Origin: Nitrososphaerota archaeon
GTDB lineage: Archaea; Thermoproteota; Nitrososphaeria; Conexivisphaerales; Conexivisphaeraceae
Assembly (NCBI GenBank): GCA_015522695.1
Contig: WALT01000002.1
Coordinates: forward strand, 62,001 to 126,000
Reading direction: 5' to 3'
DNA length: 64,000 nt
Part shown: in pieces, positions 15,467-47,578 of the stretch
Layout of the letters: the number at the start of each line of letters is the position of its first letter
Position numbering within the stretch: position 1 is the stretch's first letter
Made by a program: the position numbers and the translations under genes
Notes under the pieces: model-generated
What the model saw: only the letters and a program-made list of their open reading frames with translations
Databases searched by the model: none
What the model was told of the DNA's origin: nothing

Positions 15467-16330
15467 CTACATTCCGCCCGCGAAGAACATGATGTATAAT
15501 AAGCCTATGCCGGCCAGGACGAGCACGTGTTTCACGCCAGAACCCACGCTACCGGTGGTCAGCTTGCCTATGGCGAGGCCTCCGAGTACGACCTCGGCCA
15601 GATACATGTGGAAGAAGAGCCTGCGCGTCATATCGACGTTTATAGGGACCACGCCCATCGGTGCCGTTCCAGCCCTGACGACGCCGGCGAGGAAGGTCGA
15701 TACTATGACGTCTGAGATGTACAGGAACACTATCAAAGCCAAATAGATGACGAATATCTGTATCCTCGTCGTGGAGTACATCTCCTTTTTGAGCGCCATG
15801 GTCTCCCTCACGTATCCCCTCAGACTTCTGACGGCCGATCTGATATCCCCTCCTCCTTCCTCGGCGTCCAGCAAGAGCTTCAGTGAAAGGCTTGCCCCTG
15901 AGTGTGGTATCCTAGCGTCGATGATCCCCTTGACGGTATCATAGGGATATCCCCAGCTCAATAGGGCCACAATCCCTGCTATCTCCCTGCCCAGCACTCC
16001 ATAGGCCTTCCCGGCCACATGCCTCAGGGCCATCACGGGGGATAGACCGCCCTCCACCATGCCCTCCACATCGGCTAGGAGTCTGGGAAGGTTGCTCTCT
16101 ATACTCCTGATCCAAAAAGACCTCAGCGCGTCGAGCACGGTGTAGGGGATCGCGGCCACGATTATCGCGATCACCACGTAGTCCTGCCAACTTTTGAGTC
16201 CAGGTATTGGACTCGGAACCCTCTCGACCTCTATGGCCAGGTATGAGATCAAGAGGACAACGACCGCTCCAGCGAAGCCGGCGGCGATGGACTTCACCGT
16301 CGTGGATCTGTCGAACGTATCTACCACCAC
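15467..16330 (-). CDS. type IV pilus membrane platform protein (T2SF/TadC-like)
   Basis: A 287-residue integral membrane protein of the type II secretion F family, with two N-terminal helices (SIAAGFAGAVVVLLISYLA and the YVVIAIIVAA segment), the cytoplasmic T2SF domain (LPRLLADVEGMVEGGLSPVMAL around 98-120), and three or four C-terminal helices. It forms half of the inner-membrane platform on which the pilus ATPase acts. Overlaps the preceding T2SF gene by 10 bp, so the two platform proteins are probably made in equal amounts. Comparable to TadC of tad systems or the single UpsF/FlaJ of others. Confidence 0.8.
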   Translation of the reverse strand: MVVDTFDRSTTVKSIAAGFAGAVVVLLISYLAIEVERVPSPIPGLKSWQDYVVIAIIVAAIPYTVLDALRSFWIRSIESNLPRLLADVEGMVEGGLSPVMALRHVAGKAYGVLGREIAGIVALLSWGYPYDTVKGIIDARIPHSGASLSLKLLLDAEEGGGDIRSAVRSLRGYVRETMALKKEMYSTTRIQIFVIYLALIVFLYISDVIVSTFLAGVVRAGTAPMGVVPINVDMTRRLFFHMYLAEVVLGGLAIGKLTTGSVGSGVKHVLVLAGIGLLYIMFFAGGM

Positions 16331-17610
16331 CTCGGATAGATGGAATCTATCAGGACCATGTAGCCGATGCCGACGATCGGTATGAACAGGTATGCCAGCA
16401 CGGCGAGCAGCTGTCCATAGCTGAGCTGTGCGATGGCGATGCTGCTCGCTGACCCTAGGAGCGCCAATATTATCGCCATGAATAGAGGGGTGACCACGAA
16501 CAGCAGGACGAACAGCTCGGCGGCGAAGGTGAAATCCCCTATGAGCTTCTTCATGTAAGCCCTCCTCACGTTAAGGACGTAGTTGAATATCTCCTTGAAG
16601 TAGCCCTGGAGGTCCTCCCCACTATCTATCGCATCTATCAGGCCTGAGATCACCTCCCTCACGAGCGGCGAAGGTGTCCGGGAGGCCATCTCGGTCAGCG
16701 AGGTCCTGGCATCCATGCCGAGGAGCTCCATATCCCTTATCGTCTTCTCGATATCCCTCCTGAGCGGCCCAGGCTTCAGGGCCCCGGCGCTCCTCCTCAG
16801 GGCATCGGCCAGGGGCACGCCGCTCGACATATATGCCATCATGGCAGCTATCCACGTGCTCAGATCCTGTTCCAGTTTTCGCTTCCTGCTATCGGCCTTG
16901 AAGGACAGATATGCGAAGGCGCCCACTAGACCAACGGCGAAGCCTATGACGAAGCCGAGAGGGGCTATCACAGCGATCGTCCATGGAGGAAGACCGGCCA
17001 TGTAGACGACGATCAAGGAGGAGACTATGGTCGTCGTCGCGCCGGTCATCATCGCGACGGCCAGCATCAGGCTATAGTAGTACTCGACCGGTATCCCCAC
17101 ATCGGCCGCTTCTATCAACCTCTTAACGTCCTCGGGACTGAACACCATGGTCAACTTATGTGCATAGCTGCCCATCAATGCGCTGGCCAGAGCTGCAGGA
17201 TGAAGACGGGGTTTCTTGACGCGCTCAACCTTCCCAGCCCTACCCCTCAACTCGCGCCTCGACCTCATGATCCTCCTGACCAGCGCAGGTCCGGTGACCC
17301 CTTTGAACGGTAGGAAGAACCTGAACGCATCCATGATCAAGTAGAGCGAGAATCCCTCGAACACCAATATCGGGGACATGACGATCATCAATTGTAGGGG
17401 GAGGGAGGTCAGATAGAGAAGGAGATCCACCAGGGCGGTATATACCGCCCCGGTCGTGAGGCCTCTGTAGAAAGCCGACCTTACGTACTCGACCCTCGTC
17501 TTCTTCAATCCCCTCCTCCTGAGGAGGGCGTCGGTGATCTCTATACCATAGAATAATTCTACTATCCCATAGACTCCTGTCTTCTCACCGTCAGCCCTTG
17601 CTCGTGCCAA
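16321..17610 (-). CDS. type IV pilus membrane platform protein (T2SF/TadB-like)
   Basis: A 429-residue second T2SF-family membrane protein. Paired N-terminal helices (about 65-95) are followed by a basic cytoplasmic loop (RRIMRSRRELRGRAGKVERVKK), two helices near 190-240, the T2SF core (DLSTWIAAMMAYMSSGVPLADAL around 263-285; LVREVISGLIDAIDSGEDL) and terminal helices. It should pair with the neighbouring 287-residue protein, as in TadB/TadC systems. It overlaps the ATPase gene by 20 bp. The N-terminal GTG/ATG choice is not constrained. Confidence 0.8.
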   Translation of the reverse strand: MARARADGEKTGVYGIVELFYGIEITDALLRRRGLKKTRVEYVRSAFYRGLTTGAVYTALVDLLLYLTSLPLQLMIVMSPILVFEGFSLYLIMDAFRFFLPFKGVTGPALVRRIMRSRRELRGRAGKVERVKKPRLHPAALASALMGSYAHKLTMVFSPEDVKRLIEAADVGIPVEYYYSLMLAVAMMTGATTTIVSSLIVVYMAGLPPWTIAVIAPLGFVIGFAVGLVGAFAYLSFKADSRKRKLEQDLSTWIAAMMAYMSSGVPLADALRRSAGALKPGPLRRDIEKTIRDMELLGMDARTSLTEMASRTPSPLVREVISGLIDAIDSGEDLQGYFKEIFNYVLNVRRAYMKKLIGDFTFAAELFVLLFVVTPLFMAIILALLGSASSIAIAQLSYGQLLAVLAYLFIPIVGIGYMVLIDSIYPRWW

Positions 17611-19243
17611 GCTCCATCCTCACTCTGCTTATGACGGCGAGCTTGTTCCTGTAATAATTCCTGATGACGTTCGCGACCTCATGGAAGTCGATCATATTTT
17701 GCTTCACCATCCAGCCCAATATCATCCTCTTGCCATCGAGCTCATCCATGACATCCTCGGTGGGGATGCCCTTGAATTCCGCTATCTCGTTCAGGAGTTT
17801 GCTTTCTCCGAGCCATTTTATCTTATCGGCCGTTGGATCCCATTTCATCACGCGCTTGAGCTCGATCTCGTCCGTCTTCGCATCGTAGCCCTCTATCTCT
17901 GCTATCTCCATTATCCTCCTTATCGGCTGGCCGCCGCTCACGAGCCTGAGCTGCATCGTTATGGCGTCCACGGAGTTCGCGATCAGGGCTTTGGGCGCAT
18001 CTATCGGCGGTGACGAGAGCCTAGACGTGACGGCCATCACGCTGTCCGCATGTATCGTGGTCAACCCGCTATGACCGGTGGTCATCGCTTGGAGCAGTGT
18101 ATAAGCCTCCTTGCCCCTTACCTCCCCGACGATTATATAGTCGGGCCTCTGTCTGAGGGCAGCTCTCAGAAGCTCGAATGCGTCTATCTCCCCGCCGCCA
18201 GCCTCACCCCAAGCGCTCCTCGTGATCATCGGCGCCCAGTTCTGCTGATAAAGCCTCAGCTCCCTCGTATCCTCTATACTTACGATCTTGTAGTCCGGGT
18301 GTATGAAGTTGGCTATGGCGTTGAGCGTCGTCGTCTTGCCGCTGGCCGCCGCTCCTGCTATCATCAAGCTCTTCTTATACTCCATGAGCTCCCAGAAGTA
18401 CGCCGCGGTGAACTCGTCCATGGTACCCTTCGTTATGAGCTCGACTATCGTGTACGGCTTCTCCGTGAACTTCCTTATCGTGAAGCTACCTCCCCTGGTG
18501 GCTACCTGACCTCCGAGCACGGCATTTATCCTGCTCCCGTCCGGGAGGGTAGCATCGAGTATAGGGTTCGCTATCGAGACAGTCCTGCTGGAGACGTATG
18601 CGAACCTCAGTATCACCGTGTTCAGCTCATTTATCGTCTCGAACACGATGTTGCTCGATATCGACTCGAAGTCCTTATGCCATACGTATACGGGGACCTT
18701 TATCCCATCGCAGCTGACGTCCTCTATGTACGGGTCCCTCATCACGACGTCTATCTTGCCGAATCCCACGGTATCCCTTTTGATATAATAGAGTATCTTG
18801 TCGAGCCTGTGACGCGGTACCCTGAGCCCAAACCTCTCGGTGGAGTCGAGGACCTGTCCCTCGATGTAGGCCTCAGCCTCCTCCCTCGTGGGGAACTTCT
18901 CCCGAGGGACCTCCAGGGTATAGGTCAGCAGATCCCTGATCTCCGAGATTATCTCCCTATCCCGGGAGGTGAGTTCGGGTTCTATGACGAAGTAGATGTA
19001 CTCGTTCGTCTCCTCCCGATAGACCACGAGGGCCCTGGAGTGCACGTTATCCCCCTTTAGCTCATCGACCTTGATCACACGGAGTGGAGGGAGTTCGGCC
19101 GTCTCGATGTCCACAGGGGGTGGAGGGCTCGTCCTCCTCTTCCTTTCCCCGACACCCTTCTTCCTGCCGAATATCGATATCCTGGGGAAGCCCTGGGCTA
19201 GGAAAACATCCAGAACGTCATGGGGCAAGGATCGCCCCAGCAT
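17591..19243 (-). CDS. type II/IV secretion (archaeal pilus) ATPase
   Basis: A 550-residue GspE/VirB11-superfamily ATPase that powers assembly of an archaeal type IV pilus or related filament. N-terminal domain, then Walker A GAAASGKTTT, Asp box SIEDTRELRLY, Walker B-like YIIVGEVRGKE and His box TTGHSGLTTIHAD, all intact. The N-terminus is proline-rich and basic. First gene of a four-gene operon with two platform proteins and a zinc-ribbon protein; no prepilin or prepilin peptidase is recognisable in the window, so the filament subunits must be elsewhere. A TATA-like aaaatagttatc (about 19287-19298, minus) suggests a leader of about 24 nt before ATG 19243. Confidence 0.88.
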   Translation of the reverse strand: MLGRSLPHDVLDVFLAQGFPRISIFGRKKGVGERKRRTSPPPPVDIETAELPPLRVIKVDELKGDNVHSRALVVYREETNEYIYFVIEPELTSRDREIISEIRDLLTYTLEVPREKFPTREEAEAYIEGQVLDSTERFGLRVPRHRLDKILYYIKRDTVGFGKIDVVMRDPYIEDVSCDGIKVPVYVWHKDFESISSNIVFETINELNTVILRFAYVSSRTVSIANPILDATLPDGSRINAVLGGQVATRGGSFTIRKFTEKPYTIVELITKGTMDEFTAAYFWELMEYKKSLMIAGAAASGKTTTLNAIANFIHPDYKIVSIEDTRELRLYQQNWAPMITRSAWGEAGGGEIDAFELLRAALRQRPDYIIVGEVRGKEAYTLLQAMTTGHSGLTTIHADSVMAVTSRLSSPPIDAPKALIANSVDAITMQLRLVSGGQPIRRIMEIAEIEGYDAKTDEIELKRVMKWDPTADKIKWLGESKLLNEIAEFKGIPTEDVMDELDGKRMILGWMVKQNMIDFHEVANVIRNYYRNKLAVISRVRMELGTSKG

Positions 19244-32415: not shown

Positions 32416-34128
32416 TTGGAGGAGGTCAAGCCGTTCATAAGGGAGGTGATATTGGAGGACTTCATGAGCCATGAGTATAGCAGGATGAGGCTCAAGTTGG
32501 GCCTGAACGTGATACTCGGCCCAAATGGGGCTGGGAAATCCTCGATATTGGTCGGGATATCGCTGGCGCTCGGTCAGAGCCGTACTGAGAGATCGAGGAA
32601 GCTCAGCGAGCTCGTGAGGTATGGGAGGGATCAGGCCAGGGTTACCCTTCTATTGGACAACAGCGGCAGGAATGGGAGGAAGCCGTTGCCCAGGCTGGGC
32701 GAGATAATCAGGTTGACGAGGGTCATAAGGAGGAGTGGAGATTATTGGTTCGAGATAGATTATAGGAGGGCTGACAGGCTCGAGGTCGTGAGCATGTTGA
32801 AGGAACTCGGTCTAAACCCCGACAACATGCTCGTCATAATGCATCAGGGGCTCATAGATGAGTTTGCGGTGTTGAGCCCCCAGGAGAGGCTACAGCTGGT
32901 CGAGGAGGCCACCGGCATCTCGGGATATAGGAGGAGGTTGGAGAGGGCATTGGCGAGGCTCGAGAACGTCAGGGCTGAGGAGAGGGAGAAGAGGAAACAA
33001 CTGGAGCAGCTGCGCGCCATGGAAGAACACTGGAGGGGCCTTTACGAGAAGATCCAGGAGAGGAGGAGGCTTGAGGAGGGATTAGATGGACTTAGGTCTC
33101 TGCTCGCTTGGGCTAGGATAGCTAAACTCGAGGAAAACCTGGAAAGGGCCAGGGAGAGGAGGGAGGAGCTGGAGGGGGAGGTCTCCAAGCTCGGTGAGGA
33201 AGCTGGGAGGCTCGGAGATGAGCTCTCGAGGCTACGCTCCGAGCTCGAGTCCGTGTTGGAGGAGGGGGGGAAGGATCTGAGGAGGCTCGTGATGGGAATG
33301 GTGGATCAAATAGCCTATGACAGCGCCGAGAAGGCCGTGGTCGAGTACAGGGCTAGCGTCGCGAGGGAGGAGGCGCATAGGATAGGGCGGGAGGAGAGGA
33401 GGTTGGAGACGGAGCTATCGGAATTGAAGGAACTCGTGGGCGAGGCCGAGAGGCCGGAGAAGGTACCGTCGCTCGAGGAGGCCGAGGGTGAGATAAAGGT
33501 CGTCGAGGCTAAGATCAGGGCTCTCGGAGACATACCGGATGACGTCGAGCGCTTCTACACGGACATCAAGGTCAGGGTCGAGAGCGTGGGAGACAGGCTC
33601 AGGCAGCTGGCGGAGAATAAGGCCAGGCTCATGGAGGAGATAGCTAGGAGGATGAACGTGTGGAGGAGGGAGGTGGGGAGGCTCGTCGACGACGTCAATG
33701 AGAGCTTCAGGCATCTGCTTTCCTCAATAGGGGCTTCAGGATACATCAAGATCGTCTATGGGGAATCCCCATCGGATGCTGGGCTTGAGATCTACGTTGG
33801 ATTTAAAGGATCCAATCCCCTCCTATTGGATCCATACAGGCAGAGCGGTGGGGAGAGGAGTACGACGGTGACGGCGTTCCTCTTGGCCCTCCAGGGCAAG
33901 GTACTCTCACCATTCAGGGCGGTCGACGAGTTCGATGTGCATATGGATCCGGCCAATAGGGGCGAGCTGTTCAAGGCCCTTCACGGGATGTTCAAGGAGG
34001 ACAGGAGCACACAATATCTGGTCATAACCCCAGGATATCCTAGCTATGTCGATCCGGATGCCCAATATCTAGTCGTTCAAAAGGTCGAGGGGATTTCGGT
34101 CGCCGAGGAGGCGAGGATCCATGGGTGA
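32416..34128 (+). CDS. hinge-less SMC-like ATPase with Smc5/6-type head
   Basis: A 570-residue SMC-superfamily protein. N-terminal head with Walker A GPNGAGKSS (35-43) and Q-loop VIMHQGLIDEF (140-150) followed by LSPQERLQLVEEATG; short coiled-coil arms (about 170-285 and 310-430); C-terminal head with signature SGGERS (477-482) and Walker B SPFRAVDEFDVHMDPANR (498-515). The PFR-DEFDV-MD-NR form is that of Smc6/Smc5 rather than bacterial Smc, RecN or Rad50. The roughly 150-residue hinge is missing, replaced by a short link near 285-310, and arms are far shorter than in canonical SMC. TTG 32416 abuts the kinase stop. Likely acts on chromosomal DNA with the two following genes. Sulfolobus coalescin is another possible relative. 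Confidence 0.8.
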   Translation: MEEVKPFIREVILEDFMSHEYSRMRLKLGLNVILGPNGAGKSSILVGISLALGQSRTERSRKLSELVRYGRDQARVTLLLDNSGRNGRKPLPRLGEIIRLTRVIRRSGDYWFEIDYRRADRLEVVSMLKELGLNPDNMLVIMHQGLIDEFAVLSPQERLQLVEEATGISGYRRRLERALARLENVRAEEREKRKQLEQLRAMEEHWRGLYEKIQERRRLEEGLDGLRSLLAWARIAKLEENLERARERREELEGEVSKLGEEAGRLGDELSRLRSELESVLEEGGKDLRRLVMGMVDQIAYDSAEKAVVEYRASVAREEAHRIGREERRLETELSELKELVGEAERPEKVPSLEEAEGEIKVVEAKIRALGDIPDDVERFYTDIKVRVESVGDRLRQLAENKARLMEEIARRMNVWRREVGRLVDDVNESFRHLLSSIGASGYIKIVYGESPSDAGLEIYVGFKGSNPLLLDPYRQSGGERSTTVTAFLLALQGKVLSPFRAVDEFDVHMDPANRGELFKALHGMFKEDRSTQYLVITPGYPSYVDPDAQYLVVQKVEGISVAEEARIHG

Positions 34129-34825
34129 CCTCAGAAGGAGGATAGAGGGGAGGGAGAGGATAGTGAAGATCGTGGATGAGATAGAGAGGGAGGGAGGTGA
34201 TCCATTCCTTGTGAACGTGCCCCATGTGCTCGAGGACCTGGCGGAGGACTATGACAGCAGCGAGCCGGAGCTCCTGAGGTCGGATAGCAGGGCGATAGAA
34301 TCCCTCTCAAAGCTCGTGAAGATGCAGGAGGAGTGGGTGGATGCGAGGTTGCTGGCGACGATATCGCCGGAAAGCCTGAAGAGGAGGGTCGAGGATATGG
34401 ACTCGAGATCGCTCGCCGCTGCCTTGATGCTGGCCCAGAAACCCGCCGTCTCCGTATCCAGCACGAACGCGAGGAGGATATTGGAGGGGATCAAGTATTG
34501 GGAGTCATTGAAGCCGAGGAGGGAGGAGAGGAGGACGCCGCCTCCGATCGCACATGGAACGACGGTGGAACCGGAGAGGTTCGACGAGATGTTGAAGGGG
34601 TTCGAGGAGGAGATATCGAGGGAGATATCGACGGGATGGATCGAACTCTCCAGGATAGCTGGGCGGGGGAAGGAGGAGCACGTGAAGAGGTTGTACATGC
34701 TTGCACACCTGGCCACGCGTGGCGTCGTCGCGTTGCGCTTCGATCCCGGGAGGGAGGAGTACCTGGTCGGGCCTGCTCAGGATGGAGGTGGCCGGCCTGC
34801 CTCGATAGTCATCGAGGTGGATTAG
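34121..34825 (+). CDS. kleisin-like (ScpA/Nse4-type) partner protein
   Basis: A 234-residue protein with kleisin layout. The N-terminal helical part contains REGGDPFLVNVPHVLEDLAED (23-43), close to the DPWDVDI-L motif of ScpA, then helices with VDARLL. A proline- and charge-rich linker (130-150) follows, and the C-terminus is a winged-helix-like domain (HVKRLYMLAHLATRGVVALRF, 188-207), as in kleisins that bind the SMC cap. The gene overlaps the SMC-like gene by 8 bp and abuts the next gene. Assignment is by pattern and context, not by strong identity. Confidence 0.6.
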   Translation: MGDLRRRIEGRERIVKIVDEIEREGGDPFLVNVPHVLEDLAEDYDSSEPELLRSDSRAIESLSKLVKMQEEWVDARLLATISPESLKRRVEDMDSRSLAAALMLAQKPAVSVSSTNARRILEGIKYWESLKPRREERRTPPPIAHGTTVEPERFDEMLKGFEEEISREISTGWIELSRIAGRGKEEHVKRLYMLAHLATRGVVALRFDPGREEYLVGPAQDGGGRPASIVIEVD

Positions 34826-35380
34826 ATGGGAGAAGGATCCGAGGAGCTCGGGAGGAAGGCCTCGAAGATGCTCAGGTTACTGCTCGTTCAGAGGGGAGGG
34901 AGGCCGGGCGTGAAGGGATGGGAGCTCAAGAGACACTTCGGCACCGGTTATCCGAGGGTGCTCGAGGTAGCTAAGGTTGAGGCCGAGAAGCTGGGGTTGG
35001 AGCTGAGGGTCGTGGAGGACGACGAGAACAGAGGACCGGACTTCTCCAGATATATGCTCGTAGCATCTGAGAGCGTAGCCGAACTGGGCTTCAGCCCATT
35101 GACGATAGTGGACTCAGCCGTCCTCGCCATGATACTCGCTCTGAGCTATGGGGGTAGGAGGTCTTTACCGTTGAAGGAGGTTGAGGCCGTATTGTCCCCG
35201 AAGATCCCACATTGGCGTATAGGTCAGGCCCTCTCCAAGCTCTCGAGGCTCGGCTACATAGAGCTTGAGGACGATTCCGTGAAGGTCAGCTGGAGGAGCA
35301 GGGCTGAGGTCGATGTGGAAAGGTTGGCCAAGACCCTCTTCCTCGTCAAGCCCGGTGGGAGCGATAGACAAAGCCCCTGA
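34826..35380 (+). CDS. tandem winged-helix protein (ScpB/KITE, MAGE/Nse3-like)
   Basis: A 184-residue protein with two winged-helix units. The first (about 10-75) runs KMLRLLLVQRG, VKGWELKRHFG, RVLEVAKVEAEKLGLELRVV, then FSRYMLVAS; this order resembles the MAGE homology domain of Nse3. The second (about 90-160) has VDSAVLAMILALSYGGRR, LPLKEVEAVL and IGQALSKLSRLGYIEL. KITE proteins bind the kleisin linker in SMC-ScpAB, MukBEF and Smc5/6 complexes. It follows the kleisin-like gene with no gap, and its end overlaps the convergent Lhr gene by 35 bp. Confidence 0.6.
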   Translation: MGEGSEELGRKASKMLRLLLVQRGGRPGVKGWELKRHFGTGYPRVLEVAKVEAEKLGLELRVVEDDENRGPDFSRYMLVASESVAELGFSPLTIVDSAVLAMILALSYGGRRSLPLKEVEAVLSPKIPHWRIGQALSKLSRLGYIELEDDSVKVSWRSRAEVDVERLAKTLFLVKPGGSDRQSP

Positions 35381-38198
35381 GCACGTTCTTGCGCTCCTCC
35401 TCCGATAGCTCCAGTAGGAGCTGGTCCAGGTCTCCCTTCACCGACCTGGAGAGCACCTTCTCAGCCGCTGAGGTCGGTATCTTGAACAAGGAAGCCACCG
35501 CGGCAGGATAACCATACCTCTCGACCAGGGAGGCAGATCTCAAGGCCTTCCTATAGAGCCCTGAAAACCTCTTGGTCGGCTTCCCAAACTCGAGGACCTC
35601 CTCGGCCATCGCACGCACATCATCCTCGCCCTCCTCCAGCACGGCTATCCTCCTGGATCCGCAGACTGGACAGTAGAGCTCCTTGATCGATATCAAAGTC
35701 GTCGGTTCGATGTAATCTAGGCACTCCATGCACACCAACGTCCTCCTCGACCACTTGAACCTCGATCTCGCTGAGGCGAGGACGAGCCTCCTGAGCCTGG
35801 ACTTGTCGACGACCTCTCCCCTCACCGCCGCCCTCTCAAGCCCCACCCTCGCGATCGGGCTCGGCTCCTCGAGCTGGCCCATATCCTCCACCCTGATCTT
35901 CCCCTCCGCTATACCACGAAGGAATCTGTGCACAGCCCTCACATCGAGATCCTCCTCGAAAAGGGTCCTCCAAGCCTCCTCGTATACCAACGTCCCTCTG
36001 AGCAGATCCCGAAGCCTCCTCGTATCGTTGCTGGTCAGGACGACGCCTTCCTTCACGACCCCCATCTTCCTGGCTGCCTGCACGAGCCTCCTCATGAACA
36101 TCCACGAGTCCTCGAAAGCCGACTTGATCTCGGTCTCGATATCCACATCCGGGAGCGAGGTCAACGATGACCTCGTCAGATCCGTCGGGATCGGGCCCTT
36201 CAGATAGACCCTATACGGGTCCTGATGTGCAACTATCTCTATTCCCAATTCCTCGGACAGCCTCCTGGCCAGAAGACGCGAGAGGGTCCTATTTGCTTTG
36301 AGCCCTCTGTGTGTGTGGATCACCGTATGCTCCCCCCACCTCTCGACGGTGATGAGGACATCTGAAGGTACAGGGAGACCTCGGGAGGCCTGTTCGAGCA
36401 CGTGTACTGAAGTCCTCGCAGCGTCATCTGGGCTGAAGCCGTATTCATCCACCAGCATCCTCACAGCACCATCGATGTCCCCGGCCTCGGCCATCCTCCC
36501 CCTTAGCCGGCCGACCTCCGATGCTACCTCCTCGGGGACGGGGATCTCCTCCCCGACCCAACTCGGTATAGCACCCGTCGGGTCCTCGGCCTCCTCTACG
36601 ATGACCCTGTCGTCCAGCACCTGCTTCACGATCCAAGCTCTGCCGGCCAAGACGAACTTCGTGTCGACGGCCACGTAACCAGCCATGAACTCCTCGTCGA
36701 GGAAGCCGACCGGGATCCCGTCATCCTTCATGACGACGTGCTTAGGCTCCTCGGGTATCATCGTCAGCGTGGTGAAATGATACTCCATGAGCCTCCTCGT
36801 CGAGGCCGGCGTTATCAGGAGCTCCTCATAGGGCAGGTACCTGGCTATCGGCGGTCTCAAGTTCGACATGAACCCGGCCGCCTTCTCGATGTCCATCGAT
36901 GTCGCTCCGCCATAGGTATAGCTCCTCCTCAGGAGCTGCAGGACGTCCTTCAGCCTCACCATCCTATCCTCTAGTAGGAGGCCGGCGAGCTGCTGGACCA
37001 GGACATCGTAAGGTCTATCGGGGATCAACGGTTCCTCGAGCTGGCCCACCAAGGCCCTCCTGGCTATCGTGGCGGCCTCCAGAGCATCATCCTCATCGAC
37101 GGCGATCACGATTCCCTTGGAGATCCTGTCGAGGCTGTGCCCGCTCCTCCCGACCCTCTGCACGAGCCTCGTGACCTGTCTCGGCGATCCATATTGGATG
37201 ACCATGTTGACGACGCCTATGTCTATCCCGAGCTCCAGGCTGCTGGTGCAGACGACGGCATCCAACTCCCCCGACTTCAACCTTTCCTCTGCATCGAGCC
37301 TCCTCTCCAGCGAGAGGCTGCTGTGATGTACCTCGACCTTGATCTCAGGATCGTACAGTCTAAGCCTGTTCACAAGCACCTCAGACTCGCTCCTGGTATT
37401 CGTGAACACGAGCACCGGCGAGTTGTCCCTCACCGACCTGGAGAGCGTCCTCAGCCTCGATACAGCAGATGGATGCAGACCGAGCTCCCCAGCCGATCTG
37501 TCATCTTCCTCGATCACCCCAGGATAAACCACCTCTATCTCGTAGGGCTTCTCGGGCTTCGAGATCACGAGCTTGTAGCTCCCCTCACGGCCTACCAGGA
37601 ACTCCGCCAGCTTCTCCGGAGACCCGACGGTCGCAGAAAGCCCTATCCTCTGATGCTCGCCGGAGAGCCTGGATAACCTCTCCAGGAGCACTGAGAGCTG
37701 ACTACCCCTCTTATCCTCAGCGAGCTCATGGAGCTCGTCGACTATCACCCACCTCACGCCGATCAGATGTCTCCTCATGATGTCGGCGACCATCAGTATC
37801 TGCAAGGTCTCGGGCGTCGTGAGCAGGATATCCGGGGGGTTCCTGGCCTGCCTCCTCCGCTCGCCCTTCGGCGTGTCTCCATGTCTGACGGCCAGCTTTA
37901 GATCCAACTGGCTGGCCCACCAGCTGATCCTCGTCACCAGATCCCTATTCAACGCCCTCAGGGGCGTGACGTAAAGGGCCTTGATCCCTTCGGGGAACGA
38001 GCCCCTGAGCAATCCATCCAACACGGGCATCATGGCAGCCTCTGTCTTCCCCGATCCCGTCGGGGCGACCAGGAGGGTGTTGTAGCCCTCGAGTATCACA
38101 GGTATCGCATCCTCTTGAGGAGGAGTAGGCCTGCTCATGCCCCTGGAGGCGAGCAGTTCCCGTATCCGTGGATGGAGGAGCTCGAAGACCCCGCTCAA
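35346..38198 (-). CDS. lhr: Lhr-type large DNA helicase
   Basis: A 950-residue superfamily 2 helicase. Motif Q region PTPPQEDAIPVI, Walker A VAPTGSGKTEA (about 44-54), motif II IVDELHEL, motif III GLSATVGSPEKL, and in the second RecA domain SLELGIDIG and QRVGRSGHS (motif VI). The C-terminal half has the winged-helix/Lhr core and, near the end, a zinc-type CMECLDY...CPVCGSRR. Lhr proteins unwind forked DNA and RNA-DNA hybrids in archaeal repair. Its TTG start overlaps the stop of the hexapeptide-repeat gene (TTGA). Convergent with the SMC operon. Confidence 0.9.
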   Translation of the reverse strand: MSGVFELLHPRIRELLASRGMSRPTPPQEDAIPVILEGYNTLLVAPTGSGKTEAAMMPVLDGLLRGSFPEGIKALYVTPLRALNRDLVTRISWWASQLDLKLAVRHGDTPKGERRRQARNPPDILLTTPETLQILMVADIMRRHLIGVRWVIVDELHELAEDKRGSQLSVLLERLSRLSGEHQRIGLSATVGSPEKLAEFLVGREGSYKLVISKPEKPYEIEVVYPGVIEEDDRSAGELGLHPSAVSRLRTLSRSVRDNSPVLVFTNTRSESEVLVNRLRLYDPEIKVEVHHSSLSLERRLDAEERLKSGELDAVVCTSSLELGIDIGVVNMVIQYGSPRQVTRLVQRVGRSGHSLDRISKGIVIAVDEDDALEAATIARRALVGQLEEPLIPDRPYDVLVQQLAGLLLEDRMVRLKDVLQLLRRSYTYGGATSMDIEKAAGFMSNLRPPIARYLPYEELLITPASTRRLMEYHFTTLTMIPEEPKHVVMKDDGIPVGFLDEEFMAGYVAVDTKFVLAGRAWIVKQVLDDRVIVEEAEDPTGAIPSWVGEEIPVPEEVASEVGRLRGRMAEAGDIDGAVRMLVDEYGFSPDDAARTSVHVLEQASRGLPVPSDVLITVERWGEHTVIHTHRGLKANRTLSRLLARRLSEELGIEIVAHQDPYRVYLKGPIPTDLTRSSLTSLPDVDIETEIKSAFEDSWMFMRRLVQAARKMGVVKEGVVLTSNDTRRLRDLLRGTLVYEEAWRTLFEEDLDVRAVHRFLRGIAEGKIRVEDMGQLEEPSPIARVGLERAAVRGEVVDKSRLRRLVLASARSRFKWSRRTLVCMECLDYIEPTTLISIKELYCPVCGSRRIAVLEEGEDDVRAMAEEVLEFGKPTKRFSGLYRKALRSASLVERYGYPAAVASLFKIPTSAAEKVLSRSVKGDLDQLLLELSEEERKNVLRGFVYRSHRA

Positions 38199-43146: not shown

Positions 43147-44958
43147 TCACGTCGAGCGAGGGGACGTTCCATGGGCTCGGTATCGCCATGGGCTGGATGT
43201 CCAAGCTATCACGCGTCGTTCGTTATCCTCAGCCTTGATGAACGCCGGTATATTCTTCTGTCTCGTCGCCTTGTATGAGACGAATAACCATTCACCGGTC
43301 TGGAGTCCGGCGGTCTTGTCGAGTATGGTATAGTCCATGCTGAAGGCATCCGCTATCACCATCCTGTCGTAGAGCCTGGGCAAGGTGCTCACGAAGTAGC
43401 TGTGCAGCTGCTGAAGGGCGTTCGTGTTAAGATAGGCCACACGCTGTGTGCTTATCCAAGCGTAGAGCCTGTATTTCCTGCCCTGCCTGAGCACAGCCTC
43501 CACGGCGGAGTTCGATTCCTGTGCAGTCCCCCTGGCATCCCTCGGTATGAATTCCTGGGCCTCATCGAGGACCACGAGTATTGGCGTGCGTATACCCTTC
43601 CTCTTCTTGAGATATAGGAGCCTCCTCAGATTCCTGGCGACCACGAGCCTCGCCATGTCGGGTTCAGGCAAATACGATAGGACAAGACGGCTGCCACCCG
43701 GTGAGAGCATCCCCTCGGCCATGCTCTCAGGGGTCTCGCCGTGCAGCTTGATCCTCGTCCCTTCGCCCTCCCTTGTGAGTTCCAGTACCCCCTCGGCAAG
43801 CCCATGGATAGAGGACCTATCCGAAGTGCTCCTAGCGATCTCCTCCATGACCTCCCTCAGGACGGATGCATATCGAGGGACCTTCACGACGCCCTCCAAT
43901 GGCATGTTGGATGGTACTCCCGCCTCGGCGAAGAACGATATCAATCTATTATACGCCCTGTAGGCTTGCATGGAGCCGGACCTCCTCTCCCTGGTGACGT
44001 CCGACATCATCTCATAGAGCTCACCGAGCGTTAGGCTGTATTTCTGCTCTAGCCATAACCTCTTGATCCTACCTTGCTCCACGAGCTCGCGGGAGAGCTC
44101 GTGGAGCCAGGAGTCCCCCACCCTTTCGGCGAGGGTATCCGGAACGACCTGTGAGTTCTTCAGGTCCTCCGGGCTGTCGATGTCCTCGGTGGTGTAGAGG
44201 AAGGCACCCGTCTCCTCCACGAGATCGGCCAGGTGCACCAAATACTCGCCTGACACGTCGAACACGACTATCCTCAGGTCGGGGAATACCTTGTAGAGCT
44301 CCCTCACCAGGCTTGCCGTGAGGTTGGATTTACCAACACCGGTGAACCCGAACACCCCCACATGATACTTCACGAGGGATTCTGGATCCACGCGTAGGTT
44401 GACCCCGAAGCCCTTGAGCTCGCCGACCTTTATGCCGCCTCCTACGCAGAGCATCTCCTCGACGGCGTGAGGGGTCAATAAATAGGCCTCCGACCCCTGC
44501 AACGGTATGCTATGTGCCCTCTTGAACGTCACGACGCCTTCAGGGTTGACCTCCATCCTATATCCTGTCTCGACCGCCCCCACCTCGAGCCAAGTCTCAT
44601 CGCTTGAGAGCCAGCTGGCGCTAACCCTCTCGAGCAGCTCCTCCCTTATCGGAAGGGGTACAGCCGGCGTCAATCCCTGAAGTTGATAGTGGAAGGGCCT
44701 TATGTCCACGACCTCATATATCGCATATGAACGTTGACCTATGAGGTTCTCAGGGTAGCGGGATATCGCCAGGAACGCCGGTTCGTGGAGCCTTTCCAGG
44801 ACGGCCGCATCGAAACGTGCAGCCAGCACCGCTGTTCTGGACACCGCCTCGAGCTCGCTGCCCATGGCGTGCGTCGTCCGTCTCCTGGTCTCTATCGACC
44901 GAAGCCTGGCCCTGAAGGTCCCTCCCATGTCGTCGATGGCATCCCTCAAGAGCAACAT
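43147..44958 (-). CDS. herA: HerA-type hexameric DNA translocase
   Basis: A 603-residue FtsK/HerA-family ATPase. An N-terminal HAS-barrel-like region is followed by Walker A GFTGVGKSNLT (around 200), Walker B IRTPILVVLDEAQEFIP (about 483) and the sensor/arginine finger zone RLYAWISTQRVAYL. HerA partners with NurA in resecting 5' ends at double-strand breaks. ATG 44958 follows the NurA stop by one base (TAG-G-ATG), so both are translated from one message; an ORF extension to 45051 lies inside nurA and is discounted. No Mre11/Rad50 is adjacent, unlike in many archaea. Confidence 0.88.
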   Translation of the reverse strand: MLLLRDAIDDMGGTFRARLRSIETRRRTTHAMGSELEAVSRTAVLAARFDAAVLERLHEPAFLAISRYPENLIGQRSYAIYEVVDIRPFHYQLQGLTPAVPLPIREELLERVSASWLSSDETWLEVGAVETGYRMEVNPEGVVTFKRAHSIPLQGSEAYLLTPHAVEEMLCVGGGIKVGELKGFGVNLRVDPESLVKYHVGVFGFTGVGKSNLTASLVRELYKVFPDLRIVVFDVSGEYLVHLADLVEETGAFLYTTEDIDSPEDLKNSQVVPDTLAERVGDSWLHELSRELVEQGRIKRLWLEQKYSLTLGELYEMMSDVTRERRSGSMQAYRAYNRLISFFAEAGVPSNMPLEGVVKVPRYASVLREVMEEIARSTSDRSSIHGLAEGVLELTREGEGTRIKLHGETPESMAEGMLSPGGSRLVLSYLPEPDMARLVVARNLRRLLYLKKRKGIRTPILVVLDEAQEFIPRDARGTAQESNSAVEAVLRQGRKYRLYAWISTQRVAYLNTNALQQLHSYFVSTLPRLYDRMVIADAFSMDYTILDKTAGLQTGEWLFVSYKATRQKNIPAFIKAEDNERRVIAWTSSPWRYRAHGTSPRST

Positions 44959-44959
44959 C

Positions 44960-46693
44960 CTACCATCCCCTCTCCCTCTCGGCCAATGCCCTTTCCTCCC
45001 TGAAGCGTCTGAGTATCCAATGCAACTTCTCCCTCCTCGCCAGAGGTGCAAGCTCCAAGGCCACGACGCTCCTGAGCATTTGTGATTTCATCCTAGCGTC
45101 GAGCTTCACTGCCTTGTCGGCGAGGAACAGGAGCCTGTTATGACCATATGCCTCGGCCACCTCGGGATCATCGCTCACCTCGATGAGCTTCAACAGACCA
45201 TCATCCATCGAGCTCCTCACGCCGACCTCCAACATCATCCCCGCCTTAAAAACACCGATCCCGGATAACCCCTTCTCCTTGACCTCGAGTTCGTGGAGCA
45301 TGACCTCGTCGACGTTCGGATATACCGGTCTATCGTACAGGAAGACGGGGGATGAGACGCGTTCACCCCTCCTAGATTGAAAGAAGCTCCTGACGAAGAG
45401 CCTGTCGAGTCCGCTCACCCTCCTCAATGCCTCGAGGACGCCATCCTCCCTGGAGTATCCGAGCATCGCAAACGCTGAATCGTATGCCAACGTCCGCCAT
45501 GGGGCCTCCAGCGACTCGTGAGATGCCATGACCGTCAACAGGGCCCTGTCGCTACGATAAGGTGTCCCCTCCACCTTCAAATAGTCCTTCGATGCCAGAA
45601 GCGGTATCACGCTCCTCGAGAGATCTGAGACGTTGGTATCCTTCACAATCCCGACCAACAGGATGTTCTCCTCGACGGCCATCCTGTACGCCTCCTGAAG
45701 CAACAGGAGCGACACGAGATTTATCTCCCTGGGCGACATCCACCTGCCGCCGAATAGTAGGGGATGTTCCTCCGAGGCCTCGAAGAACCTGTGGGCTACA
45801 TGATGTGTGAGTTCATGGAGACGTCGTCTGAAATCGAGCATCCGTCCATGAAGGCTGTACTCGCCATCATGTTTCTCCAGCAATCCCCTGGAGACGAGCC
45901 TGTCCGCCCGCCTCTCCAACGCCCTCCTCTCGCCGTCCGGGAGATCCATTCCCCTCGGGCTCGATGATCCATCCCTGAGGGCCCTATAGATCAGGCGCCT
46001 GATCGCATGTAGACCGTGGATCGGGGGTACATAACCATCCGGCCCCAGCCTCACGGCGAGCTCGACATCGAGCCTTGCCAACGCTCGATCGTATCCCAGA
46101 TCTGCATAGGCCTCGGACAAGGATGGGAGGCCCTCCCTCAAGGCGAGCCTCGCATCCCTCAGGAGATGCTGATAGCTGCCGGACAGTGACCTATCCAACA
46201 GCACAACCTTGTAACCTTTGTTCAACGCGTTGATCGCCGTGTACAGCTCTGATAGTGTCATCATGGAGAAGGAGAAGTTATCGAAGGCCGTTTCCGCCTC
46301 CTCCCCAACGTAGTATTCCCCTCCCGTCAACTCGCCCACATTCTCGGACCAGAGCGGCACGGCACCGGAGAAGCTTATGGATTCCTCCTTCGCGATCGTG
46401 TCCTTCTCGAGGATCGCCCGGTCCTCGAGAAGGACCATCTTCGCCTCGTAGGCGGCGGAGCACACGTAGAATATCAACATATCCAGCGCCTCCTCCCTGG
46501 CCATGCTCCCATCTATCCCGACAGTCATGAATCGACGGCCCAGGATCTTCTTGAGGTCCCCGATGGAGTCACCATACGGATGGACGAGGATGGGTATCAG
46601 ACCGTCGAGTGGGCTCCTGGCCTTCTCCTCGAAATCGTGGGCGAGGCTCCTGACGCTGCCCAGAAGCCTCCTCGCGATGCTTCCTACTTCCAC
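44960..46693 (-). CDS. nurA: NurA-domain nuclease, unusually long
   Basis: A 577-residue NurA-family 5'-3' nuclease, HerA's partner. The first metal site is in MTVGIDGSMAREEAL (Asp about 61), then VVLLDRSLSGSYQHLL in the middle and VGIVKDTNVSDLSRS toward the C-terminal part, the expected NurA order. Crenarchaeal NurA is about 340 residues; here a long insertion (about 190-330) contains a winged-helix-like stretch (RALERRADRLVSRGLLEKHDGEYSL). GTG 46693 is exactly about 25 bp from a symmetric TATA box shared with the divergent tyrA-like gene; upstream ORF sequence is antisense to that gene and discounted. Confidence 0.83.
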   Translation of the reverse strand: MEVGSIARRLLGSVRSLAHDFEEKARSPLDGLIPILVHPYGDSIGDLKKILGRRFMTVGIDGSMAREEALDMLIFYVCSAAYEAKMVLLEDRAILEKDTIAKEESISFSGAVPLWSENVGELTGGEYYVGEEAETAFDNFSFSMMTLSELYTAINALNKGYKVVLLDRSLSGSYQHLLRDARLALREGLPSLSEAYADLGYDRALARLDVELAVRLGPDGYVPPIHGLHAIRRLIYRALRDGSSSPRGMDLPDGERRALERRADRLVSRGLLEKHDGEYSLHGRMLDFRRRLHELTHHVAHRFFEASEEHPLLFGGRWMSPREINLVSLLLLQEAYRMAVEENILLVGIVKDTNVSDLSRSVIPLLASKDYLKVEGTPYRSDRALLTVMASHESLEAPWRTLAYDSAFAMLGYSREDGVLEALRRVSGLDRLFVRSFFQSRRGERVSSPVFLYDRPVYPNVDEVMLHELEVKEKGLSGIGVFKAGMMLEVGVRSSMDDGLLKLIEVSDDPEVAEAYGHNRLLFLADKAVKLDARMKSQMLRSVVALELAPLARREKLHWILRRFREERALAERERGW

Positions 46694-46707
46694 GCATACG
46701 TTATCGA

Positions 46708-46727
46708 GATAGAAATATTTAGTATAT
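46708..46727. promoter_or_regulatory. shared symmetric TATA box for nurA and tyrA
   Basis: The near-palindromic core aaatattta (46713-46721) is about 25 bp from GTG 46693 (nurA, minus) and about 25 bp from ATG 46742 (tyrA, plus). One TBP site read in both directions would give two leaderless transcripts. Only 48 bp separate the two start codons. Confidence 0.5.
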
Positions 46728-46741
46728 GCCCCTTTTATCGC

Positions 46742-47578
46742 ATGAGCTTGAAGGTTCTGATCGTGGGACTCGGCGGGATGGGCACGATTTTCTGCAGGGA
46801 TATGATGAGGAGGGGATACTTGGTCGATGGATACGACATCAGCGCCGTGGCCAGGGATAGGGCGGCCAACCACTGTAAGAGGGTCCTCGAGGAGCTTGAA
46901 GGGGTCGATGGATATGACGTCATCGTGGCCGCCGTTCCGATATCGGAGAGCCCGAAGGTGGCCAGGAGGTTGGCGGGCGCCCTGAGGGAAGGAAGTGCAT
47001 ACGTTGACGTGACCTCCATAAAGAGACCGGTGAACACCGTCCTGAGGGAGGTCGTGTCCAAGGCCACGCTGGTATCGCTTCATCCCCTCTTCGGGCCAGG
47101 GGCGACGGGCGTCGAGGGTCGGGTGATCGTGTTGACCCCTATAAACGATGAACGAGGGGAGATGGAGGTGGCCGAGAAATTGTTCGAGGGCTCGAAGATA
47201 ATCGTGATGGATGAGGACAGGCACGATAGGGCCGTCGCATACTCGATAACCTTGCCCCAGCTGTTGGGATATCTCCACAGAGGGATATCTGGAGGGGAGG
47301 TTGTGCTCCCAACCACGAGCGGTAGGCTCCAAGCTTTAGCATCAGCGGTGGAGGCTGATGATCCGCCTCTAGCAGCGGAGATCGCCTGCGCCAACGACGG
47401 GTATTCGATCGAGATCGTCGAAAGGGCGGCTGCACTGATATCGAAGGTCCTGGGGGTGTTGAGGGGAAGGGATGTGGTCGCGCTCGCAGGGCTGCTCGAG
47501 GAGATGAAGGGTGAATGGACCGAGTGGAGCTCGCTCTACGATGAGGCATATGAACTTCTCGATGGAGGGAACCCTTAA
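46742..47578 (+). CDS. tyrA: prephenate dehydrogenase (TyrA-like)
   Basis: A 278-residue dehydrogenase of the TyrA family, converting prephenate to 4-hydroxyphenylpyruvate in tyrosine synthesis. N-terminal Rossmann motif VLIVGLGGMGTIF, VAAVPIS, VDVTSIKRPV (active-site region), SLHPLFGPGA (family hallmark with catalytic His) and HDRAVAYSITLPQLLGYLH. No chorismate mutase or ACT domain is fused. ATG 46742 is supported by the TATA box 25 bp upstream; the longer ORF from 46580 is antisense to nurA. The GAPDH gene follows 27 bp later with its own box. Confidence 0.87.
   Translation: MSLKVLIVGLGGMGTIFCRDMMRRGYLVDGYDISAVARDRAANHCKRVLEELEGVDGYDVIVAAVPISESPKVARRLAGALREGSAYVDVTSIKRPVNTVLREVVSKATLVSLHPLFGPGATGVEGRVIVLTPINDERGEMEVAEKLFEGSKIIVMDEDRHDRAVAYSITLPQLLGYLHRGISGGEVVLPTTSGRLQALASAVEADDPPLAAEIACANDGYSIEIVERAAALISKVLGVLRGRDVVALAGLLEEMKGEWTEWSSLYDEAYELLDGGNP

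Follow-up and report, generated by a model that had tools for sequence, protein, structure and literature searches.

Our findings point to a compact archaeal operon that very probably encodes a minimal Smc5/6-type SMC-kleisin-KITE complex, built around an ATPase that lacks a hinge. The three genes lie in a 64,000-nucleotide stretch of DNA from a Nitrososphaerota archaeon (hereafter the window), which corresponds to positions 62001-126000 of a contig in a 1.31-Mb archaeal metagenome-assembled genome (MAG) that is 95.5% complete. An earlier note, made from the sequence of the window, had read three abutting genes in 32416-35380 as an SMC operon with an ATPase, a kleisin and a KITE. This reading is borne out by profile searches with all three proteins, two structure searches and a tree of the ATPase heads, and the layout is as described, with open reading frames (ORFs) on the same strand, an 8-bp overlap between the first two and a flush junction between the second and third. 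As an overall explanation we consider a hinge-less Smc5/6-type ATP-gated DNA clamp likely, this being known here from its genes and from single-chain models of the kleisin and the KITE.

The strongest indication of kinship with Smc5/6 comes from the first gene product, a 570-aa protein with a match to the Pfam family SMC_N (E=1.4e-27). Its ABC ATPase heads are bipartite and complete in their nucleotide motifs, and thus the SMC head motifs that the earlier note had placed at both ends of the protein (Walker A, SGGERS and the Walker B/D-loop) are all in evidence, with their core residues invariant or nearly so in 23 orthologues. The Walker B/D-loop SPFRAVDEFDVHMDP, which had been recognized as being of the Smc5/6 form, aligns with SPFRCLDEFDVYMDMVNR in human Smc6 and CPFRVVDEINQGMDPINE in human Smc5. 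When a profile of the 23 orthologues was searched against 177,635 PDB sequences, Smc5 ranked first (E=1.1e-61), followed by Smc6 (E=1.5e-60) and then archaeal SMC (5.9e-56); a control profile made from 13 canonical SMCs of related archaea returned no Smc5 or Smc6 among 44 PDB chains at E<=1e-40. In a maximum likelihood tree of head domains (46 rows, 303 columns), one branch supported at 99/95 unites the hinge-less heads with Smc5 and Smc6, while canonical SMC and Rad50 form clades supported at 96/90 and 100/100, respectively. The grouping of the heads with Rad50, which the note had named as a result that would speak against its reading, did not occur. Two very long rows (L063 and L064) were left out of this final tree, as the tree was unstable with them. 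At the position of Trp232, tryptophan is shared by 26 of 26 family members in the tree with both human proteins (Smc5 and Smc6) and with yeast Smc6; yeast Smc5 has tyrosine instead, and the tryptophan is missing from all 12 canonical SMCs. These sequence comparisons support the placement of the ATPase heads in the Smc5/6 lineage, with alternative placements left by approximately unbiased (AU) tests as detailed below.

The second defining property of the ATPase is what it lacks. SMC_hinge (PF06470) matched none of the 23 alignment members and none of three further long members, including the two longest seen (0/26), whereas 11 of 13 canonical SMCs of related genomes gave a match. Walker A and the signature lie 438-567 aa apart in 107 orthologues, compared with 989-1051 aa in these canonical SMCs, and the whole protein measures 567-756 aa across 109 full-length orthologues. 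The coiled-coil strands are only ~110-120 residues each, with neck and joint conserved, so the absence of a hinge and the short coiled coils proposed from the first inspection both hold. Conservation drops to 0.34-0.35 at the apex, compared with 0.7-0.85 over much of the heads, and therefore no conserved apex domain replaces the hinge. A CxxC zinc hook in the middle of the protein was likewise found in none of 107 hinge-less ATPases. The possibility raised in the note, that a frameshift had removed a hinge still present in relatives, finds no footing, as no close relative encodes a hinge in the ATPase gene. Since canonical SMC and Smc5/6 both carry a hinge, loss of the hinge in this family is more parsimonious than a hinge-less ancestor.

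The two smaller proteins point in the same direction, although searches of Pfam and NCBIfam with a single kleisin or KITE sequence were uninformative and it was alignment-based profiles that gave matches. A kleisin profile of 60 sequences ranked yeast Nse4 first in the PDB (5.2e-5), then human EID3, an Nse4 paralogue (2.3e-4), and then ScpA chains (0.018-0.068). In its AlphaFold2 model (predicted local distance difference test, pLDDT, 80.6), the 234-aa protein has a helical domain at the N-terminus and a winged helix at the C-terminus, connected by a poorly ordered linker; the winged helix had been foreseen for a kleisin-like product. The winged-helix domain compares with ScpA-C (4i99_C) at TMt 0.75 and rmsd 2.8 in Foldseek, and the best six Foldseek matches of the model are all kleisins (Nse4, Rad21, Brn1 and ScpA). 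Profile and model together support the assignment of this protein as a putative Nse4-type kleisin. The 184-aa third protein is modeled by AlphaFold2 as tandem winged helices (pLDDT 86.7), and in a Foldseek search of the PDB ranks 1-14 are all MAGE, Nse1, Nse3 or MukE, with ScpB from rank 16 down, which agrees with the MAGE/Nse3 type first suggested for it. Its profile matches MAGE-domain Nse3 (0.0059) and Nse1 (0.034), and ScpB is not among the profile matches; with a larger profile MAGE-domain Nse3 is retrieved at 0.004, beside a designed repeat protein at 0.0032 that is a chance match. The R157-x3-E161 motif of the KITE also occurs in Nse1 in the profile alignment, and no RING domain match was found on the 184-aa protein. 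Kleisin and KITE folds were thus retrieved for both partners, whose failure to match either was the other outcome that the note had held to be adverse.

The operon is widespread, well beyond anything attributable to chance. Our sample comprised 398 genomes in 164 genera of one phylum, inferred to be GTDB Thermoproteota, in which ATPase carriers were scored at E<=1e-60 and presence or absence was called from profile searches across genomes. The hinge-less ATPase occurs in 158 of these genomes and 78 of the genera, and in most families sampled around the source MAG, as one locus per genome; no paralogue was found in the source MAG. The conservation of the operon, which the note had proposed to check, is evident from the adjacent and collinear arrangement of ATPase, kleisin and KITE in 75 of 87 genomes after removal of duplicates. 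Most non-collinear cases reflect over-extended ORF starts or contig ends, and in L108 the kleisin-KITE pair is on the other strand. In a set of 33 genomes selected as carriers or non-carriers of the ATPase, the profile of the KITE matched 10/10 carriers and 0/23 non-carriers. As a separate observation, three families of the same class (f7, f9 and f10, probably ammonia-oxidising Nitrososphaeria) do not have the trio; their canonical SMC and Rad50-like proteins are retained.

Thirty-two carriers were tested for canonical SMC, with absence defined as no match at E<=1e-50. A full-length canonical SMC stands beside the hinge-less ATPase in 23 of them, and none was detected in the other nine, which belong to seven families (G000, G001, G002, G103, G154, G199, G285, G308 and G409) and include the source MAG (G000) and its complete relative (G001). 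ScpA (PF02616) was not matched in G000 and G001, though this model is itself weak in these archaea (3/13 genomes). Matches to the model for the ASRP family of short SMC-related ATPases are weak and below cut-off in G000 and others, and the match in G000 coincides with a Rad50-like gene. It appears, then, that the hinge-less complex is the only SMC-kleisin complex in some archaea.

Table 1. Coordinates within the window of the genes and motifs discussed in the text.
Feature	Position	Strand	Details
SMC-like ATPase gene	32416-34128	+	570 aa, TTG start, ORF call
Walker A GPNGAGKS (aa 35-42)	32518-32541	+	Columns invariant in 23-orthologue alignment
Trp232, head-proximal coiled coil (joint region), Smc5/6-lineage mark	33109-33111	+	Residue comparison
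Short-arm apex (aa 261-300), position expected for hinge	33196-33315	+	Least conserved part
ABC signature SGGERS (aa 477-482)	33844-33861	+	23-orthologue alignment
Walker B/D-loop SPFRAVDEFDVHMDP (aa 498-512), mixing Smc5 and Smc6 features	33907-33951	+	Alignment to human Smc5/Smc6
Kleisin-like gene	34121-34825	+	234 aa, overlaps ATPase ORF by 8 bp
Kleisin C-terminal winged-helix domain (aa 151-218)	34571-34774	+	Secondary structure of AlphaFold2 model
KITE-like gene	34826-35380	+	184 aa, abuts kleisin-like ORF
R157-x3-E161 motif after second winged helix	35294-35308	+	R and E invariant in 53 orthologues; aligned to Nse1
Lhr-type DNA helicase gene	35346-38198	-	PF19306 WH_Lhr and PRK13767 matches; not claimed as subunit

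Some observations weigh against the assignment to a hinge-less Smc5/6-type complex. An AU test does not reject the placement of Smc5/6 with canonical SMC (p=0.24), the Foldseek E-values of the kleisin are weak (best 0.0027) with a low whole-chain TM (0.28), and the ATPase could still dimerise at its apex through a small, fast-evolving interface. The head tree does not establish the hinge-less group as one clade (AU p=0.52) and is compatible with Smc5/6 standing either beside or inside the hinge-less family. The foremost alternative, which we regard as unlikely, is that of a reduced condensin, in which an archaeal complex of the canonical Smc-ScpA type has shed its hinge, functions mainly in chromosome folding and owes its Smc5/6 likeness to shared SMC ancestry. 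Such a complex would fit the position of the trio as the only SMC-kleisin complex in several families, the matches of the kleisin profile to ScpA as well, and the head position left open by the AU tests. However, the separate full-length canonical SMC kept by 23/32 carriers marks the hinge-less ATPase as a paralogue and not a replacement, Smc5/6 subunits rank first for each of the three proteins independently, and ScpB is missing from the KITE profile matches.

A Rad50/RecN-like sensor of DNA ends or junctions, whose short coiled coils pair at the apex and whose partners are regulators instead of kleisin and KITE, is in our judgement improbable. Though the length and domain layout of the ATPase resemble those of RecN and ASRP proteins, and Rad50 head models also match it, the missing zinc hook (0/107 proteins), the separate Rad50 clade (100/100), the score of 53.1 bits with the ASRP model (NCBIfam NF045487) against a cut-off of 300 and the kleisin and KITE folds of the partners all argue otherwise. 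We give still less credence to a defence system of the Wadjet or Lamassu kind, directed against plasmids or viruses. Smc5/6 counters viral DNA and JetABCD restricts plasmids (PMC10586767), and the ATPase matches the mad3, LmuB and JetC models of PADLOC weakly to moderately, but the operon is without a nuclease effector and neither the kleisin nor the KITE has a PADLOC match; moreover, the single copy, wide spread over families and flanks that vary except for the Lhr gene are what a core gene, and not a defence locus of patchy occurrence, would show. Truncation or misassembly of an SMC gene, suggested by a protein of about half the normal SMC length, was rejected because the same architecture recurs in 109 full-length orthologues from many families, including single-contig genomes.

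Read as a minimal Smc5/6-type complex, the archaeal trio is like its eukaryotic counterpart in head sequence, joint tryptophan, Nse4-like kleisin, Nse1/Nse3-type KITE and subunit classes. It differs in having one ATPase gene and one KITE instead of two of each, in lacking a hinge and a RING on the KITE, and in the absence of Nse2 and Nse5/6 from the operon, to which this comparison is confined, as the genome was not searched for them. In yeast Smc5/6, DNA loads via the neck gate, and entrapment is not impaired when the hinge is covalently closed; in the clamped state Nse3 touches both arms and thereby separates an upper from a lower half of the SMC compartment (PMC10191858). Heads, neck, joint, kleisin and KITE, which make up the lower half, are all retained in the archaeal complex, and an ATP-gated clamp is therefore proposed, a mechanism drawn by analogy towards which we lean slightly. 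Two copies of the ATPase would be joined by ATP-driven head engagement and by one kleisin bridging neck and cap, and not by a hinge, with a KITE homodimer sitting on the kleisin linker. Of the DNA compartments of Smc5/6, heads, kleisin and KITE would build just the lower one (head-neck-KITE), and its closure would fall to the KITE and the kleisin instead of a hinge. The engaged heads would capture a DNA segment or junction, which would be held between heads and KITE under the control of ATP. The kleisin would be the sole permanent link between the two ATPases, binding and release of DNA would depend on ATP, and a hinge-closed ring would not be possible. The likely roles would be in genome maintenance, on recombination or replication intermediates and perhaps with the neighbouring Lhr helicase, and chromosome organisation is conceivable where canonical SMC is missing. 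Given the Smc5/6 relationship, the default assumption on function is repair or the handling of junctions, and we put forward a repair role only tentatively.

Comparison with other SMC systems helps to delimit the family. Canonical archaeal Smc-ScpA shares an SMC head and a kleisin with the trio and co-occurs in most carriers, but its SMC is full-length (~1115-1195 aa here), contains a hinge and falls into the separate 96/90 clade, and no KITE was bound by the archaeal canonical Smc-ScpA pairs tested (PMC7055376). The KITE of MukBEF (MukE) resembles the archaeal KITE in fold, yet MukBEF and Wadjet JetABC have long arms and a hinge, and the trio has no MukF/JetA-type kleisin match and no JetD. 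The ASRP family (coalescin ClsN and Sph) also comprises short archaeal SMC-related ATPases; according to PMC9389158, most of these have a zinc hook and no consensus flanking genes were found for them, whereas the trio lacks a zinc hook and forms a conserved kleisin-KITE operon. Heads of archaeal 'SMC5/6-related SMC' that branch with Smc5/6 have already been published (Yoshinaga and Inagaki, as summarised in PMC9389158), and this set probably includes the hinge-less family or coincides with it. The article handles these proteins as heads in a tree and, in the parts covered, mentions neither a hinge-less architecture nor a kleisin-KITE operon for them, and we found no earlier account of either in the accessible literature, which excluded the two most relevant works.

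The KITE gene overlaps at its 3' end with the gene for the Lhr-type helicase, which lies on the opposite strand. Of the 55 loci that exceed 8 kb, 30 have such a helicase beside the operon, in most cases immediately downstream and in convergent orientation; this adjacency is a hint of a shared role and no proof of one. On the upstream side, a ~244-aa protein without a Pfam match is encoded just before the operon, usually on the opposite strand, in 18 loci (L142:7789-8523 and relatives), and in one family (f6) a metallo-beta-lactamase-fold protein is found directly upstream (L057:8070-8963, L011, L013, L014, L015 and L020). Elsewhere in the window, a HerA-domain ATPase (DUF87) overlaps a 790-aa ORF without a Pfam match (43147-47332, minus strand), and a type IV pilus/archaellum-like pair of ATPase and membrane protein (T2SSE and T2SSF) is present at 16321-19243 (minus strand). 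Two further observations concern other assemblies: in L064:5893-8184 (Candidatus Zixiibacteriota), the N-terminal half of a single ORF resembles Rad50 and the region after it matches the catalase HPII model, either an unusual fusion or a product of faulty assembly, and L033 (G029:C37) is a bacterial-type SMC fragment within an archaeal MAG, probably a contamination.

Every SMC-kleisin complex in the literature covered is a ring closed by a hinge, and the leading models of loop extrusion depend on long arms and a hinge. That a widespread archaeal SMC-kleisin-KITE complex works wholly without a hinge, as a stand-alone Smc5/6-type clamp and as the sole SMC-kleisin complex in several families, is a proposition we hold to be evenly balanced. 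If true, hinge-closed rings would not be indispensable for SMC function, and the head-kleisin-KITE module of Smc5/6 would be older than eukaryotes. The hinge-less complex can be used to test the need for a hinge, as it separates the abilities of the clamp module from those that are hinge-dependent. As a simple three-gene relative of Smc5/6, with one gene per subunit class and partly from thermophiles, the trio should be useful for structural work, and it may inform how the eukaryotic heterodimers Smc5/Smc6 and Nse1/Nse3 originated from homodimers.

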